Origin: Parvibaculum sp.
GTDB lineage: Bacteria; Pseudomonadota; Alphaproteobacteria; Parvibaculales; Parvibaculaceae
Direction of reading: 5' to 3'
NCBI GenBank assembly: GCA_030645235.1
Contig: JAUSMV010000030.1
Span: forward strand, 310,001 to 374,000
DNA length: 64,000 nucleotides
The notes under the pieces are model-generated. The model was not told the origin of the DNA. It worked only from the letters and a program-made list of their open reading frames with translations, and did not search any database. The position numbers and the translations under genes were made by a program. Shown in pieces: positions 26,212 to 58,123 of this stretch (the stretch's first letter is position 1; each line of letters begins with the position of its first letter).

Positions 26212-27702
<1,491 letters not shown>

Positions 27703-27762
27703 TATCCCCGCCTGCGGATTATTTTGCGGGATAATGCCGATAAGCTGCGGAAAAGTGAAAAT

Positions 27763-27862
27763 CTATCCCCGACTGGGAATAGGCGTTCGCGCGCCGACGC
27801 GAGACCCTCGACGAACAAGGCTACGATCTCTGCATGGAAACACTCGATCTCTTGCAAGAAAT
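27763..27862 (+). repeat. 100-base intergenic element, copy A (possible small RNA)
   Basis: It starts with CTATCCCCG, has 31 variable bases and then a 60-base core (27803-27862) that matches the core of copy B at 48668-48727 in 53 of 60 positions by my count, with no gap. Most core differences fall in one 7-base block. The segment GAAACACT (27837-27844) can pair with AGTGaTTTC (27866-27874). It lies between the convergent kinase and sufA genes. Confidence 0.6.
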
Positions 27863-27904
27863 ACAAGTGATTTCGTGCGAACCGTTCTTAATAATCGGGT
27901 AAAA

Positions 27905-28264
27905 TCAGGCTTCGGAGGCGACCAAAGTCACGCTCTCGCCGCAGCCGCAGGCGTCGGTCTGGTTCGGATTATTGAACTTGAAACCGGCCGAAAACTTCTC
28001 CGTCTGATAGTCCATCTCGGTGCCGATCAGAAACAGGATCGCCTTGGGATCAATCAGTATACGGACGCCTTTGTCCTCGACCACTTCGTCCAATGGCTTC
28101 TGATCCTGAGCATATTCCATCGTATATTCCATGCCCGCACAGCCGCCGTTTTTCACGCCGACGCGCAGGCCGATATATTTGCCCTCCGACTGCGCCATGA
28201 TCTCGCGCAGATGGTCAGCCGCCTTGTCGGTCAGTTTGATCGCTTTTGGACGTTCGCGTGCCAT
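27905..28264 (-). CDS. sufA: A-type Fe-S carrier, SufA/HesB/IscA family
   Basis: 119 residues. The three cluster-binding cysteines are present: one in GGCAGM and two in the C-terminal CGCGES. The fold-defining KLTDKAADHLREIM start and FKFNNPNQTDACGCG end match the family. It accepts clusters built on SufBCD and passes them to target enzymes. It is the last gene of the iscR-suf operon, 54 bases after sufT. Confidence 0.92.
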   Translation of the reverse strand: MARERPKAIKLTDKAADHLREIMAQSEGKYIGLRVGVKNGGCAGMEYTMEYAQDQKPLDEVVEDKGVRILIDPKAILFLIGTEMDYQTEKFSAGFKFNNPNQTDACGCGESVTLVASEA

Positions 28265-37176: not shown

Positions 37177-37218
37177 AAGTCCGATCAACCTCAGTTTGGC
37201 GGCACGCGAAAACGTGCT

Positions 37219-37253
37219 AATTCCTGCGAGAGATTAAGCGTTTCCATGTCGAG
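37219..37253 (-). repeat. short relative (copy C) of the 100-base intergenic element
   Basis: It matches the hairpin part of copy B in 28 of 35 positions; most changes are transitions. The surrounding bases 37208-37244 can form the same stem-loop, with changes on both arms. It lies between the divergent anmK and tyrS genes, close to both promoters. Confidence 0.45.
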
Positions 37254-37300
37254 TTCGAGCGAAATTCGAGCGAGCTGCTTGAACCAAAAGAGACCTCAAA

Positions 37301-38557
37301 ATGAGTGCATTTAAGTCCGACTTCCTCCGCGAGATTTCCGCGCGTGGATTTATCCATCAATGTTCAGATGCGGAAGCACTCGACGCTTATGCCGCAAAAG
37401 AAACAATGACGGCCTATATCGGATTCGACTGCACCGGTCCTTCGCTCCATGTCGGGCACCTTATGGGAATAATGATGCTGCGCCGCTTGCAGCAGGCGGG
37501 GCACAAGCCAATCGTGTTGATGGGCGGCGGCACAACCAAAGTGGGCGATCCGTCCGGCAAAGACGAGCAGCGCCAGTTGCTCACCGACGAGGTGATCGCG
37601 GCCAACATGGCGTCGATCAAAACGGCTTTCACCTCGTTCCTGACATTCGGCGACGGGCCGACCGATGCCATCATGGTCAATAATGCCGAATGGCTCGACA
37701 AGCTCGAATATATCGCTTTCCTGCGCGACTATGGCCGCCATTTCTCCGTGAACAGAATGTTGAGCTTTGACAGCGTGAAGCTGCGCCTTGAGCGCGAGCA
37801 GCCGCTGTCCTTCCTCGAATTCAATTACATGATTTTGCAGGCCTATGATTTCGTCGAACTTGGCAAACGCTATGGCTGCCGCTTGCAGATGGGCGGTTCG
37901 GACCAATGGGGCAATATCGTCAACGGCATCGACCTCGGCCGCCGCGCGGCGAACCTTGATCTCTATGCCGTGACCTGCCCGCTCATCACCACGTCATCGG
38001 GCGCGAAGATGGGCAAGACGGCGTCGGGCGCGGTGTGGCTCAACGCTGACATGCGTTCGCCGTTCGACTATTGGCAGTTCTGGCGCAATACGGAGGACGC
38101 CGATGTGGGCCGCTTCCTGCGTCTCTTCACCGAATTGCCGCTCAATGAAATCGCGCGGCTTGAAGCTCTGCCCGGCGCGGAGCTGAACGAGGCGAAAAAG
38201 GTGCTGGCGACGGAAGCCACCGCGATGCTGCATGGGCGGGCGGAAGCCGACCGCGCGGCGGGCGCTGCGAAAGCGGCGTTTGAGGAGGGGTCATTGAGCG
38301 CGGACCTGCCGACGATTGAGATTGACGGGGCGCTGCTCGATGCCGGGCTTGGTGTGCTCAATGCGTTCGTTCTGGCGGGACTTTGCGCGTCAACGAGCGA
38401 TGTGCGGCGTCAGATTAAGGGCGGCGCTTTGCGCGTGAATGACGAGGCTGTAAGTGATGACCGTGCGGTGCTGACGCGGGCAAACCTGACGGCTGACGGC
38501 GTGGTGAAGCTGTCGATGGGTAAGAAGCGGCATGTGTTACTGAGGCCTGCTGCTTGA
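37301..38557 (+). CDS. tyrS: tyrosyl-tRNA synthetase
   Basis: 418 residues, class I synthetase of the long bacterial type. The HIGH-type motif is [10 protein letters not shown] near residue 50, [10 protein letters not shown] lies in the middle, and the KMSKS loop reads KMGKT. The C-terminal S4 RNA-binding domain includes [18 protein letters not shown]. It loads tRNA-Tyr with tyrosine. The ATG matches the normal start. Confidence 0.97.
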
Positions 38558-38567
38558 GCAAGTAAGC

Positions 38568-38707
38568 CCCTCACCCGTCGTCGGGAAATTGGTCCACGGG
38601 ACCAATTTCTGATCCTCTCCGCCTCTCCCAGAGGGAGAGGACTTTCTCCGCGATTTCCGAACTCGTGGCTCACCCCCCTCCCTACCCTCCCCCTCAAGGG
38701 GGGAGGG
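38568..38707. repeat. cluster of REP-like palindromes after tyrS
   Basis: Three hairpins stand side by side: GAAATTGGTCC/GGACCAATTTC (38585-38609), CCTCTCCC-AGA-GGGAGAGG (38622-38640) and CCCTCCCCC/GGGGGAGGG (38685-38707). The CCCTCACC...CCCAGAGGGAGAGGAC frame recurs at 58083-58112, which marks a dispersed element of the kind common in alphaproteobacterial spacers. The cluster may also end tyrS transcription. Confidence 0.65.
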
Positions 38708-38737
38708 GAAAAACGCGCCGCCGTTCTCTAAAATCAA

Positions 38738-38768
38738 AAAGGCCATCTCCTTGGGGGAGATGGCCTTT
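38738..38768 (-). terminator. intrinsic terminator of the diiron protein gene
   Basis: A 13-base stem (AAAGGCCATCTCC at 38738-38750 with 38756-38768) is followed on the minus strand by TTTTGATTTT. A second hairpin, GCGGTTTGTT/AACAAACCGC at 38774-38808, lies between it and the gene end. Confidence 0.85.
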
Positions 38769-38836
38769 GGGGTGCGGTTTGTTTGATCCTTGAGGGGGAA
38801 CAAACCGCTCTGGGGTTTGCTTAAACTTTCAAAATT

Positions 38837-47417: not shown

Positions 47418-48546
47418 TTAGTCGATGTCTTCAACCGCTTCGATGCCGCCCTTCACGCGCGCTGCAAGGGCTGCGGCCATGAATTCGTCGAGGTCGCCAT
47501 CGAGCACGTCGGCGGGTGCGGGGCTGACGACGCCGGTGCGCAGGTCTTTGACCATCTGATAGGGCTGCAAGACATAGGAGCGGATCTGGTGACCCCAACC
47601 GATTTCGGTTTTGGTTGCGGCTTCAGCGTTGGCCTGTGCTTCGCGCTTTTCAAGTTCCAACTCATAGAGACGCGCGCGGAGCATGTTCCATGCGGTCGCT
47701 TTGTTTTTGTGCTGCGAGCGTTCGTTCTGGCAAGCGACCACGATACCGGTCGGCACGTGTGTGATGCGGACGGCGCTGTCTGTCGTATTGACGTGCTGAC
47801 CACCGGCACCGGATGAGCGGTAGGTGTCGATGCGGCAATCGCTTTCGTTGATGTCGATATCGATTGTTTCATCGACCACGGGATAGACCCAGACGGATGA
47901 GAAAGATGTGTGACGACGCGCATTGCTGTCATAAGGCGAAATGCGCACGAGACGGTGGACGCCGCTTTCGGTTTTCATCCAGCCGAAACCGTTATGGCCT
48001 TTAATCATGATGGTCGCGGATTTGATGCCCGCTTCTTCGCCGTCATGGCGCTCCATCAATTCGACCTTGTAGCCTTTGCGTTCGGCCCAGCGCGTGTACA
48101 TGCGCAACAGCATCGACGCCCAGTCCTGACTCTCCGTGCCGCCTGCACCGGAATGGACTTCGACATAGCAATCATTGCTGTCGGCTTCGCCTGCGAGCAG
48201 CGTTTCGATTTCGGCTTTGCGGGCATCTTCGCGCGCGAGCTTCAACGCGGCTTCGGCTTCAACAACGATGCTGTCATCGCCTTCGGCTTCGCCCATCTCA
48301 ATCAATTCGAGATTGTCGTTCAATGCGCTTTCGAGACGAAGGTAATCGTTGATCGCGCCTTCGAGGCGTGTGCGTTCGCGCATCAGGCTTTGTGCGTTGG
48401 CGGGATCGTTCCAGAGGTTGGGGTCTTCGGCCTTCGCGTTTAATTCGTCGAGGCGTTTGCGGGCTGAATCCCAGTCAAAGATGCCTCCTCAGCAGTGCGA
48501 GCGACTGCTTGATTTCATCGGCGATGGTCTGGGTCTCGGCGCGCAT
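47418..48546 (-). CDS. prfB: peptide chain release factor 2 with programmed +1 frameshift
   Basis: The gene starts at ATG 48546; after 23 codons there is an in-frame TGA at 48477-48475. Reading goes on by skipping the T and using GAC at 48476, giving about 375 residues in total. The frameshift signal is complete: AGGAGG, CAT, CTT, TGA, C. The main frame has the GGQ motif in [10 protein letters not shown] and the stop-recognition tripeptide in the form SPY ([15 protein letters not shown]), as often seen in Alphaproteobacteria. RF2 ends translation at UGA and UAA and controls its own amount through this UGA. Confidence 0.96.
48475..48489 (-). promoter_or_regulatory. prfB programmed +1 frameshift site
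   Basis: On the minus strand AGGAGG (48489-48484) is followed by CAT, the slippery CTT (48480-48478) and TGA (48477-48475) then C. The internal Shine-Dalgarno spacing of three bases is the arrangement used in E. coli prfB. Confidence 0.95.
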
Positions 48547-48667
48547 GGAACGGGGCCTTCCGGTTAAGTGCGGGCGGAAAATAGGATGATTGGGGGCAGG
48601 TGTAAACCCGTTGCTTCGGGGGAGGATAAGTAAATTTGGGGCTCAACAGAGGCTCGAAACACTCAAC

Positions 48668-48767
48668 ATTTCTTGCAAGAGATTGAGTGTTTCCATGCAG
48701 AGATCGTGTGTCAGTTCGTCGAGGGTCCGTGCCCTGGTCGAAAAACGTAATCCCCGGGCGGGGATAG
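48668..48767 (-). repeat. 100-base intergenic element, copy B (possible small RNA)
   Basis: Read on the minus strand it begins with CTATCCCCG (48767-48759), has 31 variable bases and then the 60-base core (48727-48668) shared with copy A at 27803-27862. Just beyond the core end, GAAACACTCAA and TTGAGTGTTTC (48683-48693 and 48656-48666) form a perfect 11-base stem around a 16-base loop. It lies outside any gene I can support. Confidence 0.6.
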
Positions 48768-48849
48768 GGGCTGAAATGGCCTGAAATAATTTATCCCCCC
48801 TCTTCTCACATCATTGCTTCGCTTCGTCGGCAATGACGGAAGAAAATAC

Positions 48850-48889
48850 CCCCACCCAAAATACCCGGAGACGAATATTTTGGGTGGGG
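48850..48889 (-). terminator. terminator of the lytic transglycosylase gene
   Basis: CCCCACCCAAAATA (48850-48863) pairs with TATTTTGGGTGGGG (48876-48889), a 14-base perfect stem; on the minus strand TATTTTCTT follows. It is 32 bases past the gene stop. Confidence 0.85.
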
Positions 48890-48920
48890 AGGTCAGAAGA
48901 AAACGGAAGAGGTCACCGGA

Positions 48921-50120
48921 TCAGCTCTTGAAGAAATCGAGATTGGCTTTGCAGACGGTGGCGACTTCTCTGGTGGACATGAAGCGGCTGAGTTCATCGA
49001 AGAGCGAAGCGACGCTGCGCGCCTTGCCGTCGGAGGTATAGAAGAGCCAGCGATTGGAAGCAGCGGCGGATGGCAGAATACTGGCTGCCGATGTCGCTGC
49101 CGCTTTGTCACGCGTCTCGACAAGCTTCACCGCATTGCCTGCACCCAATACATGGGAGGCATAAAGCTCGCCGTGAGCGGGTGTGCGACCGAGGCTTTTG
49201 GTGAGCGCCGCTTTGTTTTCCATTGTGAGTTCGCCGGCCATGAGGGCGGCCACATAAGGATCCGTGCGGAGTGCCAGAACCTCTGTGCGGGCTTCGTCGG
49301 AGACGGGCTTATAGGTGCCGTTGGACTGTTTGGTGAGCAAAGCCACTTCAGCATCGAGCTTATGCTTTGCGCCATATTTGCCGAGAATCTGGAACCAGGT
49401 TTGCTGAATGAACTGGAACGGGCCGGTGGCGGACGAGGTCGGGGCTTTTGCGCCGAGCACGAGACCGCTTTCACGCAGCGCGATATGCAGGAGATAACCG
49501 GAATTGGCACCCGTTTCTTCCGAGGCTTTGACGATGGCCCCCAGAATGTCGGGGCCAAGGGCGGCAGCGCTTTTCTCAACGGCGTCAACAGAAGGCACGG
49601 GCCCCGGAGCCGGTGGCGCTATGGCGGTTGATTGAGCGTCAGGCTGTGCTGCATCAACGGCCGCCTCTTTTTCCTGCTGATAAAGTTCGTTCACGGCTTC
49701 AGCAATCTTTGCCACATCTTCCTGTGACAACCGCAATTCTGCGCGACGCTTTTCACGCGCGGCGCGACGCTCTGCCCGCTCCTGCTCCAAAGCGGCAGCG
49801 GCCTTGATGAGCGTGTCATTGGCTTTGCTGAGGTCAGCAAGCGCAGCATTCGCATTTTGATCCGTTACCGTACTATTCTGACGCGTGGCGATGAGCCCGT
49901 GCGCTGCCGCCGCACCGGATACGCTTGCCGTAACGGATGCGCCGACAGACTTCAGATCCCGCATAAAGTCACCGCTCTCAACGTATTTAGAGAAGTTCTG
50001 CGCGGGAGCGGTTTGCATCAGGGCCGCACTGCTGCGGGCCAGCGTTGATTGTCCGCGTTCGGCACCTGCGGCGTCCCATAATAATATGCCGACAAGTAAC
50101 AGAGTGATTTTCATCCACAT
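48921..50120 (-). CDS. lytic transglycosylase (SLT fold), exported
   Basis: 399 residues with a signal peptide (MWMKITLLLVGILLWDAAGA). An Ala/Glu/Arg-rich coiled segment at about 90-155 comes before the catalytic domain: SGYLLHIALRESGL with catalytic Glu, then SSATGPFQFIQQTWFQIL, and YASHVLGAGNAVKLV. It cleaves the glycan strands of peptidoglycan, making anhydro-MurNAc that AnmK can recycle. The C-terminal 60 residues are of unknown type. Confidence 0.85.
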   Translation of the reverse strand: MWMKITLLLVGILLWDAAGAERGQSTLARSSAALMQTAPAQNFSKYVESGDFMRDLKSVGASVTASVSGAAAAHGLIATRQNSTVTDQNANAALADLSKANDTLIKAAAALEQERAERRAAREKRRAELRLSQEDVAKIAEAVNELYQQEKEAAVDAAQPDAQSTAIAPPAPGPVPSVDAVEKSAAALGPDILGAIVKASEETGANSGYLLHIALRESGLVLGAKAPTSSATGPFQFIQQTWFQILGKYGAKHKLDAEVALLTKQSNGTYKPVSDEARTEVLALRTDPYVAALMAGELTMENKAALTKSLGRTPAHGELYASHVLGAGNAVKLVETRDKAAATSAASILPSAAASNRWLFYTSDGKARSVASLFDELSRFMSTREVATVCKANLDFFKS

Positions 50121-55246: not shown

Positions 55247-57988
55247 ATGGCAAACAAGATGCTTATCGATTCGACCCACCCGGAAGAAACCCGGGTTGTG
55301 GTCGTGAATGGAAACCGTGTTGACGAGTTCGACTTCGAGTCGGAATCGCGCAAACAGCTTCGCGGCAATATCTATCTCGCAAAAATCACGCGCGTAGAGC
55401 CTTCGCTGCAAGCCGCCTTTGTTGAATATGGCGGCAACCGTCACGGTTTCCTCGCCTTCAGCGAAATCCATCCTGACTATTATCAGATCCCTGTCGCGGA
55501 CCGCGAAGCGATCCTGAAGCATCAGGCCGCGCAAGCGCGCCGCGCTCAGGAAGAAGAAAACGCCGACGGCGATGATATCGCGTTTTCCACGCAGCCTGCC
55601 TCTGCCGCCAATATGCATGCCACTGTCGAAGCGGAAGTGCTGGGCGAAGATCACGACGATGACCTTGCCGACGATGAAGGTCGCGGCGAAGTCAGCGAAG
55701 CGGGCGCAGGCGCCGACGACGATGATGATGATCACGCCCCCGAAGCGCCGGAAGAGGCAGGCGCGGAAGCGGAAGCCACCGCCGGGACCTCTTATGATAT
55801 GTCGGGGGACGAGACCTCCGGCGACGGCGTGGCGGAAGAGCACGGCGCTGACGATCACGCGGACCATGCCGGTCTTGACGTACCGCATGCCGATGAGGTG
55901 ATCGAAGCGGTCGGTGCGGAAGACCCGCATGAAGAAGCGCAGGAAGAAGCCGAGCCGCGCAAGCAGCGCCACAATTTCCGCAATTACAAGATTCAGGAAG
56001 TTGTGAAGCGCCGCCAGATCATGCTGGTGCAGGTTGTCAAAGAAGAACGCGGCAACAAGGGCGCGGCGCTGACCACGTTCCTGTCGCTCGCCGGACGCTA
56101 TTGCGTGCTGATGCCCAACACGGCGCGCGGCGGCGGCATTTCGCGCAAGATCACAGTGGCCGCTGATCGCAAGAAACTCAAAGGTATTGCGGAGTCGCTC
56201 GATGTGCCGGAAGGCATGGGCCTCATCATCCGCACGGCGGGCGCCAAGCGCACCAAAGCGGAAATCAAACGCGACTATGAATATCTGTTGCGTATGTGGG
56301 AAAGCGTGCGTGAACTGACGCTGCGCTCGACCGCCCCTGCCCTCGTCTATGAAGAAGGCAGCCTGATCAAACGCTCGATCCGCGACCTTTACGACAAAGA
56401 CATCGACGCTGTGTTCGTTGAAGGCGACGAAGGCTATCGCGAAGCCAAAGACTTCATGCGGATGCTGATGCCGAGCCACGCCAAAAACGTGCAGCCCTAT
56501 AAGGACAAGCAGCCGCTGTTTCAGAAATATCAGGTGGAGCAGCAGCTCGACTCGATGTTCAACCCGACTGTGACGCTGAAATCAGGCGGCTATATCGTCA
56601 TCAATCCGACGGAAGCACTCGTCTCGATCGACGTGAACTCCGGCCGCTCAACAAAAGAGCGCAATATTGAACAGACGGCACTGCGCACCAATCTTGAAGC
56701 AGCGGAAGAAGTTGCACGTCAGATGCGTCTGCGCGACTTGGCCGGCCTCATCGTTATCGACTTCATCGACATGGACGAGAACCGCAACAACCGTGCGGTG
56801 GAACGTAAACTCAAAGACAGTCTGCGCACGGATCGCGCGCGCATTCAGGTGGGACGTATCAGCCATTTCGGTCTGATGGAAATGTCGCGCCAGCGGATGC
56901 GTTCGGGCGTGCTTGAAGGCTCGACCGTGATCTGCCCGCATTGCACGGGCACGGGCATTGTGCGCTCGGTTGAATCCATGGCGCTGCATGTGTTGCGCGG
57001 CGTGGAAGCCGAAGCGATGAAGGGCCGCGCTGCGGCGCTGACCGCCAAAGTGCCGGTGGAATGTGCGGTTTACATTCTCAACCAGAAGCGCTCGAACCTG
57101 CTCGACATCGAAGACCGCTACGGATTGTCGGTCTATATCGAAGCTGACCACACGCTCAAAGGGTCCGAGCATCGCGTGGAACAGGCCGAAGCCCGCGCCA
57201 AGACGCGCACGCGTCCGGCGGCCGGTGCCATCAATATTGAAAACACCTATGCCGACGAAGAAGACCCCATCATCGAAGATGTGATCGACGAAGATGAGGA
57301 CGAGGCAGAAGACGAAGTTGAAGTTGTGGCGGAAGTGCGCGAGCCGCGTGAGCCGCGCGGTGAAGGCCGTGGCGGACGTGATCGCGAAGCGCGCGGCGGC
57401 GATGAGGAAAACCCGCGCAAGCGTCGTCGCCGTCGTCGTAAGAAAAAAGGCGAGGACGGCGCTGAAGGCGGCACCGCTCAGACTGGTGAGGCGGACGAAG
57501 ATGATGATGCGGAAGATGCTGTGGCCGGTGAAGCCGGTGACAGCGATGCCGCAGAAGCGACTGCAGGCGAAGGCACGGAAATCGGTGCTGACGGCGAAGA
57601 GCGTCCGCGCAAGCGTCGCCGTCGCGGTCGTCGCGGTGGTCGCCGCAATCGTCGTGATGCCGATGGCAAGCTGATCGCTGATGATGCGGAAGGCGTTGCC
57701 GGTTCGGATGATGGCGAAGACGGCGATGAGGAGGCTGGTGACGAAGCCGAAGCGCCGGTGTTGCTCGCCTATTCGCGCGATGATGTGAAAGCGGTTGAGG
57801 CGCCGGTGGCGGCAGCACCTGTTGTCGTGACGCCGGAGCCGGTTGCGGTGGCCGATGTTGCGCCGGAGCCTGTGGCGGAATTTTTGGCGGCACCTGTTGC
57901 TGTGGTCGAAGAGACTGACGGCGATGTGGCTGTTGATGACAAGCCGAAGGTGACGCGTCGCGGTTGGTGGCAGCGCAAGACGGAGTAG
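55247..57988 (+). CDS. rne: ribonuclease E
   Basis: 913 residues, ATG after GGAG. The S1 domain starts at about residue 35 (RGNIYLAKITRVEPSLQAAFVEYGGNRHGFLAFSEI) and is interrupted by a very acidic insert at about 100-240. The RNase E/G core follows, with catalytic Asp residues in SIDVNSGRSTKERNIEQTALRTNLEAA and VIDFIDMDENRNNR. The zinc link CPHC is at 563-566. The C-terminal third alternates acidic and Arg-rich blocks (KRRRRRRKKK, KRRRRGRRGGRRNRR) for RNA and degradosome contacts. It initiates mRNA decay and rRNA/tRNA processing. Confidence 0.96.
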   Translation: MANKMLIDSTHPEETRVVVVNGNRVDEFDFESESRKQLRGNIYLAKITRVEPSLQAAFVEYGGNRHGFLAFSEIHPDYYQIPVADREAILKHQAAQARRAQEEENADGDDIAFSTQPASAANMHATVEAEVLGEDHDDDLADDEGRGEVSEAGAGADDDDDDHAPEAPEEAGAEAEATAGTSYDMSGDETSGDGVAEEHGADDHADHAGLDVPHADEVIEAVGAEDPHEEAQEEAEPRKQRHNFRNYKIQEVVKRRQIMLVQVVKEERGNKGAALTTFLSLAGRYCVLMPNTARGGGISRKITVAADRKKLKGIAESLDVPEGMGLIIRTAGAKRTKAEIKRDYEYLLRMWESVRELTLRSTAPALVYEEGSLIKRSIRDLYDKDIDAVFVEGDEGYREAKDFMRMLMPSHAKNVQPYKDKQPLFQKYQVEQQLDSMFNPTVTLKSGGYIVINPTEALVSIDVNSGRSTKERNIEQTALRTNLEAAEEVARQMRLRDLAGLIVIDFIDMDENRNNRAVERKLKDSLRTDRARIQVGRISHFGLMEMSRQRMRSGVLEGSTVICPHCTGTGIVRSVESMALHVLRGVEAEAMKGRAAALTAKVPVECAVYILNQKRSNLLDIEDRYGLSVYIEADHTLKGSEHRVEQAEARAKTRTRPAAGAINIENTYADEEDPIIEDVIDEDEDEAEDEVEVVAEVREPREPRGEGRGGRDREARGGDEENPRKRRRRRRKKKGEDGAEGGTAQTGEADEDDDAEDAVAGEAGDSDAAEATAGEGTEIGADGEERPRKRRRRGRRGGRRNRRDADGKLIADDAEGVAGSDDGEDGDEEAGDEAEAPVLLAYSRDDVKAVEAPVAAAPVVVTPEPVAVADVAPEPVAEFLAAPVAVVEETDGDVAVDDKPKVTRRGWWQRKTE

Positions 57989-58017
57989 GTTTTGCTCTGA
58001 CAGCGGATGAAATGAAG

Positions 58018-58055
58018 AAGCCTGACATCGTGATGATGTCAGGCTTTTTTGTTTT
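58018..58055 (+). terminator. intrinsic terminator of rne
   Basis: AAGCCTGACATC (58018-58029) pairs with GATGTCAGGCTT (58035-58046), followed by TTTTGTTTTT. It lies 30 bases after the rne stop. Confidence 0.95.
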
Positions 58056-58082
58056 TCGGGATGGGTCAGGAAGTAAGAAAGA

Positions 58083-58112
58083 CCCTCACCTTCCGCTCCC
58101 AGAGGGAGAGGA
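58083..58112. repeat. second copy of REP-like palindrome
   Basis: CCCTCACC...CTCCCAGAGGGAGAGGAC repeats the outer sequences of the element at 38568-38641 with the middle part missing. It lies between the convergent rne and PilZ-methyltransferase genes. Confidence 0.55.
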
Positions 58113-58123
58113 CCGGAAAAATC

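Follow-up and report, generated by a model that had tools for sequence, protein, structure and literature searches.

A Uup-derived repeat dispersed in a Parvibaculum genome, with a core that is uniform in the host and different in a sister species

An element of about 100 bases recurs in a 64,000-nucleotide stretch of a Parvibaculum genome (the whole stretch analysed is called the window below), and the question it raises is what the element is, where it came from and why its copies are so much alike. In the original prediction, two copies and a partial third one were regarded as an intergenic small RNA or repeat family, with a small peptide as the alternative. Copies A (27763–27862, + strand) and B (48668–48767, − strand) have, as claimed, CTATCCCCG in common, and 53 of their last 60 bases are identical, the differing positions being 27817–27822 and 27846. 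For the wider search, a sequence-only model of the approximately 120-bp unit, called R1, was built from 43 aligned copies. The R1 matches in the window were A, B and C only, where C, recovered by the model, proved to be a weaker relative. The features of these loci are as follows (the four genes are ORFs named from reading their sequence alone).

27762–27879, + strand: copy A, whole unit (R1 match C58:337762-337879, 89.3 bits, E 3.4e-25)
27763–27782, + strand: hairpin module at the 5′ end of copy A, CTATCCCCGACTGGGAATAG; its uup counterpart and the family consensus have 15 of 18 letters in common
27807–27824, + strand: middle block of copy A, CTCGACGAAC..., equivalent to the LDEPTN part of uup (from the sequence, alignment A1 and uup)
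27825–27860, + strand: core of copy A (36 bp), GATCTCTGCATGGAAACACTCGATCTCTTGCAAGAA, found in more intergenic copies than any other core (27 of 81)
48650–48767, − strand: copy B, whole unit (R1 match C58:358650-358767, 101.8 bits)
48750–48765, − strand: terminator-like hairpin module of copy B with a T-rich tail behind it
48670–48705, − strand: 36-bp core of copy B, the ACACTCAAT variant (core comparison)
37214–37264, − strand: copy C, partial and diverged, flanked by divergent genes (R1 match C58:347214-347264, 26.9 bits, E 1e-5)
26212–27702, + strand: histidine-kinase-like gene, 5′ of copy A
27905–28264, − strand: SufA/ErpA-like gene, convergent with the kinase gene and flanking copy A
48921–50120, − strand: transglycosylase-like gene, upstream of copy B
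47418–48383, − strand: prfB-like gene, downstream of copy B, with its true start further upstream

The start region of the prfB-like gene (around 48470–48540 of the window, − strand) contains a short frame whose end, CTT TGA C, is closely preceded by an AGGAGG-like stretch, which we take to be the usual programmed frameshift site of release factor 2. Just upstream of copy B, at 48849–48890 on the − strand, there is a 19-pair terminator-like hairpin, which is stronger than that of B itself.

Size and anatomy of the repeat family

The search of the whole genome for more copies of the core, which had been proposed together with the original prediction, was carried out and yielded about 100 copies, thus the repeat family is real and far larger than the two or three copies seen at first. 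In the host genome (3.83 Mb in 86 contigs), R1 gave 114 matches at E ≤ 1, of which 99 reached E ≤ 1e-5 (150 of the 1,201 first-look candidates were scored), the 99 taking in the uup source gene as well as a few tandem copies, each counted as two. The 28-base core, with up to two mismatches, was found at 66 sites and its reversed-pattern control at none, which indicates that the copies are not due to chance (the core-based counts, 66 and 62 copies, miss the CCTCGAA variant described below). Searching with the upstream flank alone (CTCRACGAACYGAC, at most one mismatch) gave 62 matches, compared with 6 for the control. Thirty of these 62 were read, all of them exact: four were ABC ATPase genes and 26 were accompanied by the core (0–6 mismatches in 36). 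Since these 26 places were chosen by their flank and still have a recognisable core, the uniformity of the core is no artefact of searching with it.

The anatomy of the unit was analysed on 81 intergenic copies (at least 44 bits, with the 28-base core within 10 mismatches). Their mean pairwise identity was 0.55 in the 5′ module, 0.33 (0.326) in the spacer, 0.65 in the middle block and 0.90 (0.898) in the 36-bp core; just past the core it was 0.42, and in the far flanks 0.256–0.260. Among the 81 copies, 28 different core sequences occurred, of which the commonest differs from uup by a GAC to TGC change, while the core is exactly as in uup in four copies. One intergenic copy (L039, around G000:C58:1282306) has a part of its core tandemly duplicated with a period of approximately 22 bp. 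Convergent gene pairs surrounded 47 of the 82 intergenic copies with known neighbours and divergent ones 6 of 82, compared with 6 and 9, respectively, of the 26 intergenic regions of the window, the A, B and C sites included (Fisher p 0.003 for convergent and 0.001 for divergent pairs); the contexts come from a simple gene caller and some “coding” assignments may be wrong. The location between genes, as first described, holds for A, B and C and does not hold for the family as a whole, which has copies inside genes as well. The exact core had no match in a public genome collection, from which the host's own record may be absent, and among the open-licence papers searched none was recognised as describing this uup-derived repeat family.

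The data did not bear out the proposal of a small RNA. A structured RNA conserved for its fold (small RNA, terminator or 3′-end element) would account for the 5′ hairpin, which can form with at least five of six pairs, G-T allowed, in 53 of the 81 intergenic copies (8–19 in shifted controls), and for the T-run that follows the 5′ module in 34 of 81 copies (4 in the control), hairpin and T-run being combined in 22 of 81. The stem originally proposed is, as stated, perfect in the fold of B and broken in that of A, and it is paired in 62.4% of the cells, more than the 25–43% seen in slid registers. However, the shuffles reached 62.3%, that is, covariation was not detected, RNAalifold found four pairs only in the family (−1.2 kcal/mol), and the window gave no match in Rfam, a check that had also been proposed. 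Copy B folded better than its shuffles (z −2.7), but A (−0.7) and C (+0.6) no better. Moreover, the highest conservation lies outside the hairpin, and the antisense copies within genes cannot serve as such an RNA. Considering both sides, we regard a fold-conserved RNA as very unlikely. As to copy A, its 5′ hairpin is terminator-like on the − strand only.

Origin of the unit from a Uup-like gene

Sequence comparison identified the approximately 120-bp unit as a fragment of the host's own gene for a Uup-like ABC-F ATPase. When the core was searched in 97 relatives with two mismatches allowed, the single match outside the host lay inside the ABC-F ATPase gene of one of them (G038). The Uup-like gene of the host, which is open over about 600 codons, holds the core and can be aligned without gaps over the whole unit (CTTATCCTCGCCCGGGCATTAGC...CTCGACGAACCGACTAACGATCTCGACATGGAAACACTCGATCTCTTGCAAGAAATGCTGACTGAT), and R1 matched it with 86.9 bits at model positions 3–114. 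In the same register, 15 of 18 letters in the 5′ part of the gene agree with the hairpin module of the family; as high a score occurs at 3 places out of 127,962 in the window, possibly including copies A and B themselves. At this fixed register, no good match to the 5′ module was found in the seven coding copies besides uup (the best had 11 of 18). In the relatives shown, the uup-type genes have nearly the same residues at the motif but use different codons, therefore uup is the origin of the repeat rather than its victim. The best NCBIfam family of the host gene by E-value was Uup, with 611 bits, below the cut-off of 900, while the general ABC-F model gave 425 bits, above its cut-off of 380, and for this reason the gene is called “Uup-like”. 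Unlike the full gene, the copies are fragments of approximately 120 bp only, without a complete gene.

This origin also bears on the small peptide considered in the original prediction. The METLDLLQE frame is real and is open in many copies, but it is inherited from uup and there is no sign of a peptide gene. If a conserved peptide, METL(D/N)LLQE, were what the copies are kept for, several features would be hard to understand: within the core, third codon positions vary as little as the other two, the peptide is altered by a compensated shift in 23 copies, and the start contexts are variable. Hence, we give this reading hardly any credence.

Shared sites and core dialects in a sister species

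In one of the congeners, the sister species G003 (in which 3,020 bp are identical to the Parvibaculum sp. MAG record JAUSLL010000118.1), CTCGACATGGAAACACTCGA was found at 23 sites with two mismatches at most, its own uup gene being one of them. The same search gave 0 to 3 sites in each of the other 25 congeners and at least one site in 23 of the 25; one site lay inside the uup match in 21 of these 23, and the other two genomes (G025 and G026) were outside the R1 run. R1, applied to 41 genomes with stricter filters, gave at least 13 matches in G003 and at least 1–4 in each of 23 other congeners. The best match was the uup gene in 22 of these 23, that is, in all 22 for which the sequence was fetched. 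Self-comparison of the intergenic space in 300 kb of G013 and 300 kb of G006, two sampled genomes, revealed no comparable family: the intergenic regions resembling another one numbered 9 of 135 in G013 and 2 of 131 in G006. In G013, about four intergenic regions of the 300 kb contain another small family, of TGACGGTTCGRTGAC-like repeats (L403–L417).

The flanks of 21 of the 23 sites in G003 could be aligned with flanks of host copies (in pieces of 67–89% identity and one short piece of 95%), and in the pair alignments listed the aligned flanks enclosed both motifs within one and the same interval, although not always base on base. Matching flanks at 21 of 23 sites indicate that those places pre-date the species split; judged by these alignments, at least about 20 places, uup among them, had been occupied before the host and G003 separated. 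For the approximately 80 further host copies, no counterpart is known from G003, where a single pattern was used for the search; G003 may lack them.

Seventeen of the 21 pairs were compared within their cores, leaving out one at a contig end (L250), two coding ones (L255 and L265) and uup (L258). In the last 14 core bases, the host copies were 0.975 alike among themselves and the G003 copies 0.578, while the likeness of orthologues was 0.462 as against 0.470 for non-orthologous cross-species pairs, and random re-pairing equalled the orthologue likeness in 99% of 5000 trials. As orthologues are no closer to each other than unrelated copies of the two species, the cores show concerted evolution. 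The corresponding values for the first 20 core bases were 0.818 (host), 0.937 (G003), 0.821 (orthologues) and 0.827 (non-orthologous cross-species pairs), but these are biased, because in G003 this part is the 20-base search pattern itself. The consensus of the last 14 bases is TCTCTTGCAAGAAA in the host and ATTCGGACAGGAAA in G003. Five orthologous coding places were extracted (uup, PrmC, QueD, the second AddB site and RecJ), and at all of them the host sequence was CAAGAA and that of G003 CAGGAA. Since the uup genes of the congeners shown carry CAGGA, the CAAGAA state of the host seems to be derived, and it is common to genes and intergenic copies.

Replacement inside genes and the upkeep of uniformity

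The core or its reverse complement was found in the open frames of several genes, and eight such coding sites were compared with their orthologues in up to seven congeners (gene names are from sequence reading). At five of the eight, the length did not change at the motif and the native codons were replaced. This was the case in PrmC, RecJ and QueD (seven genomes compared for each), in an SDR gene, the orthologue of which was found in two of seven, and in Alr of G003, where six congeners were compared and a four-residue gap in five of them lies far downstream. In PrmC, for example, a congener has ...GVDISEEALQVARENS... at the motif where G003 has ...GIDLDMETLEIAQENA..., and the host sequence was replaced likewise. 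The remaining three sites differed in length: the first AddB site, which contains two tandem cores, is 13 residues longer than in most congeners and 18 longer than in G003, the second AddB site has two extra residues beside the motif in the host and G003 compared with the other congeners, and HemH is two to three residues longer in the host and seven more in G003. The motif was also seen in TlyA-like, dehydrogenase-like, TamB-like and ExbD-like genes. It is worth mentioning that the AddB-like gene (L111, G000:C58:1435774-1438805) carries the motif twice in opposite strands, the tandem pair being an insertion in one strand and the second site mostly a replacement in the other.

Bacterial interspersed repeats have usually been traced to transposases. 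A non-autonomous REP- or MITE-like element into which a uup fragment had been captured, and which a transposase mobilised formerly or still mobilises in the lineage of the host, would fit the copy number, the size, the hairpins and the preference for convergent intergenic regions, as well as the approximately 80 host copies without a known G003 counterpart. Short, high-copy, intergenic repeats with hairpins are likewise what REP elements and REPINs, the companions of RAYT transposases, are. The uup-derived repeat is also present in high copy number and mostly between genes, but its invariant part is not the palindrome, and neither the host nor G003 gave a match to a Y1 or REP-associated transposase: PF01797 (Y1, RAYT-type) had no match in either genome and was positive in 1 of 27 genomes of the genus. 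A RAYT-driven REP repeat was rejected on this ground. Furthermore, transposition produces insertions, whereas five of the eight coding sites are in-register replacements, and it would not homogenise old sites. We consider the mobile element improbable. Rickettsia palindromic elements are a parallel in some respects, as they are of similar unit size, occur in an alphaproteobacterium and lie in frame within unrelated protein genes; a review (PMC10969869) describes them as integrated, while here five of the eight coding sites compared were replaced without length change and, unlike for the elements in that account, the source gene is identifiable.

The explanation to which we give an even chance is that an old uup-derived repeat has been kept uniform by short ectopic conversion among its copies. 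According to this, a uup fragment of approximately 120 bp has given rise to about 100 dispersed copies, mostly between convergent genes, and non-reciprocal copying among the copies and uup would keep the 36-bp core uniform within a species, the pattern itself being what was observed. Each species would thereby acquire its own core dialect, while flanks and spacers would drift to near-randomness, and the divergence of the flanks, by stopping pairing, would limit the conversion tract to the core. The same copying may overwrite partly similar coding sequence in register where the protein tolerates it, which would produce the replacements found. Drift of the copied fragment could have formed the hairpins, one of them terminator-like, that fit the 3′ intergenic space, and the hairpin and T-run counts agree with this in part.

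A sign of copying is the compensated two-step variant CCTCGAA (ACACTCGAT to ACCTCGAAT), which occurred 23 times among the fetched loci, where neither of the one-step intermediates was found (0 and 0). This points to copying in blocks and not to independent mutation. All three common upstream triplets were seen together with the variant (17, 3 and 3 times; Fisher p 1.0), and the lack of association suggests that blocks shorter than the whole core reassort. Such free assortment of two core blocks means that the conversion tracts would have to be below 36 bp, which counts against conversion, as does the lower uniformity of the last 14 bases among the G003 copies. The length changes at three of the eight coding sites also count against this explanation, and the replacement in genes with little prior similarity is not easily explained by conversion. 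Moreover, part of the host uniformity could stem from later spread within the host only, since a counterpart in G003 is known for only approximately 20 of the about 99 copies.

The main rival is a chromosome-wide recognition signal born from uup, serving in uptake, packaging, chromosome organisation or the like, in which the core is bound by a putative trans-acting factor. Selection or molecular drive would keep the sites matched, and a shift of the specificity of the factor in one species would lead to the dialects. It accounts for the dialects and the gene-internal sites equally well as conversion: sites shared by the two species carry the new sequence, they occur in both orientations, in coding and intergenic positions, and the coding ones obey the dialect of the species. 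DNA uptake signals are short and very numerous; here, a 36-bp core has 99 matches (E ≤ 1e-5) in 3.83 Mb, which is not a very high number, and species dialects were found both inside and outside genes. The uptake sequences of Neisseriaceae offer a parallel, since dialects, commonly intragenic positions and a tie to terminators are described for them (PMC3630211); they share with the present repeat a genome-wide motif in genes and at terminators and species dialects, but the length of the core, the number of copies and the origin from a housekeeping gene differ, so the likeness is one of behaviour only. The 28–36 near-invariant bases greatly exceed what an uptake signal needs and about 100 sites are few beside the numbers of such signals, and the 23 compensated variants without intermediates suggest copying. 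On balance, a recognition signal is possible but somewhat doubtful.

Short conversion, the preferred explanation, has a bolder form, which we put forward tentatively and as rather less probable: a fragment of a housekeeping gene may have turned into a self-homogenising motif whose templated replacement rewrites the genome. It would convert about 100 dispersed sites and, in unrelated conserved genes, would overwrite the codons in register, on either strand. If true, this would be a short-patch sequence drive working without a transposase, each species having its own dialect. In this family the source is an identifiable housekeeping gene and at least some sites are old, yet the sequence is uniform in the host and different in the sister species, even within genes. 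The two sister species make the upkeep of short-repeat uniformity testable, be it by conversion, selection through a binding factor or biased transfer.

A reverse transcriptase was considered as a copying agent common to both species and was rejected, since there were two matches in the host and none in G003 (92% complete); in the host alone, it may still be the agent. The two reverse-transcriptase-like genes of the host, for which no counterpart was found in G003, are located at G000:C55:455572-456072 and G000:C33:325-780. Finally, a separate short repeated hairpin, CC(T/G)CTCCCAGAGGGAGAGGAC, was observed in the window at 38557–38836 and 57988–58123, both of which are convergent intergenic regions.
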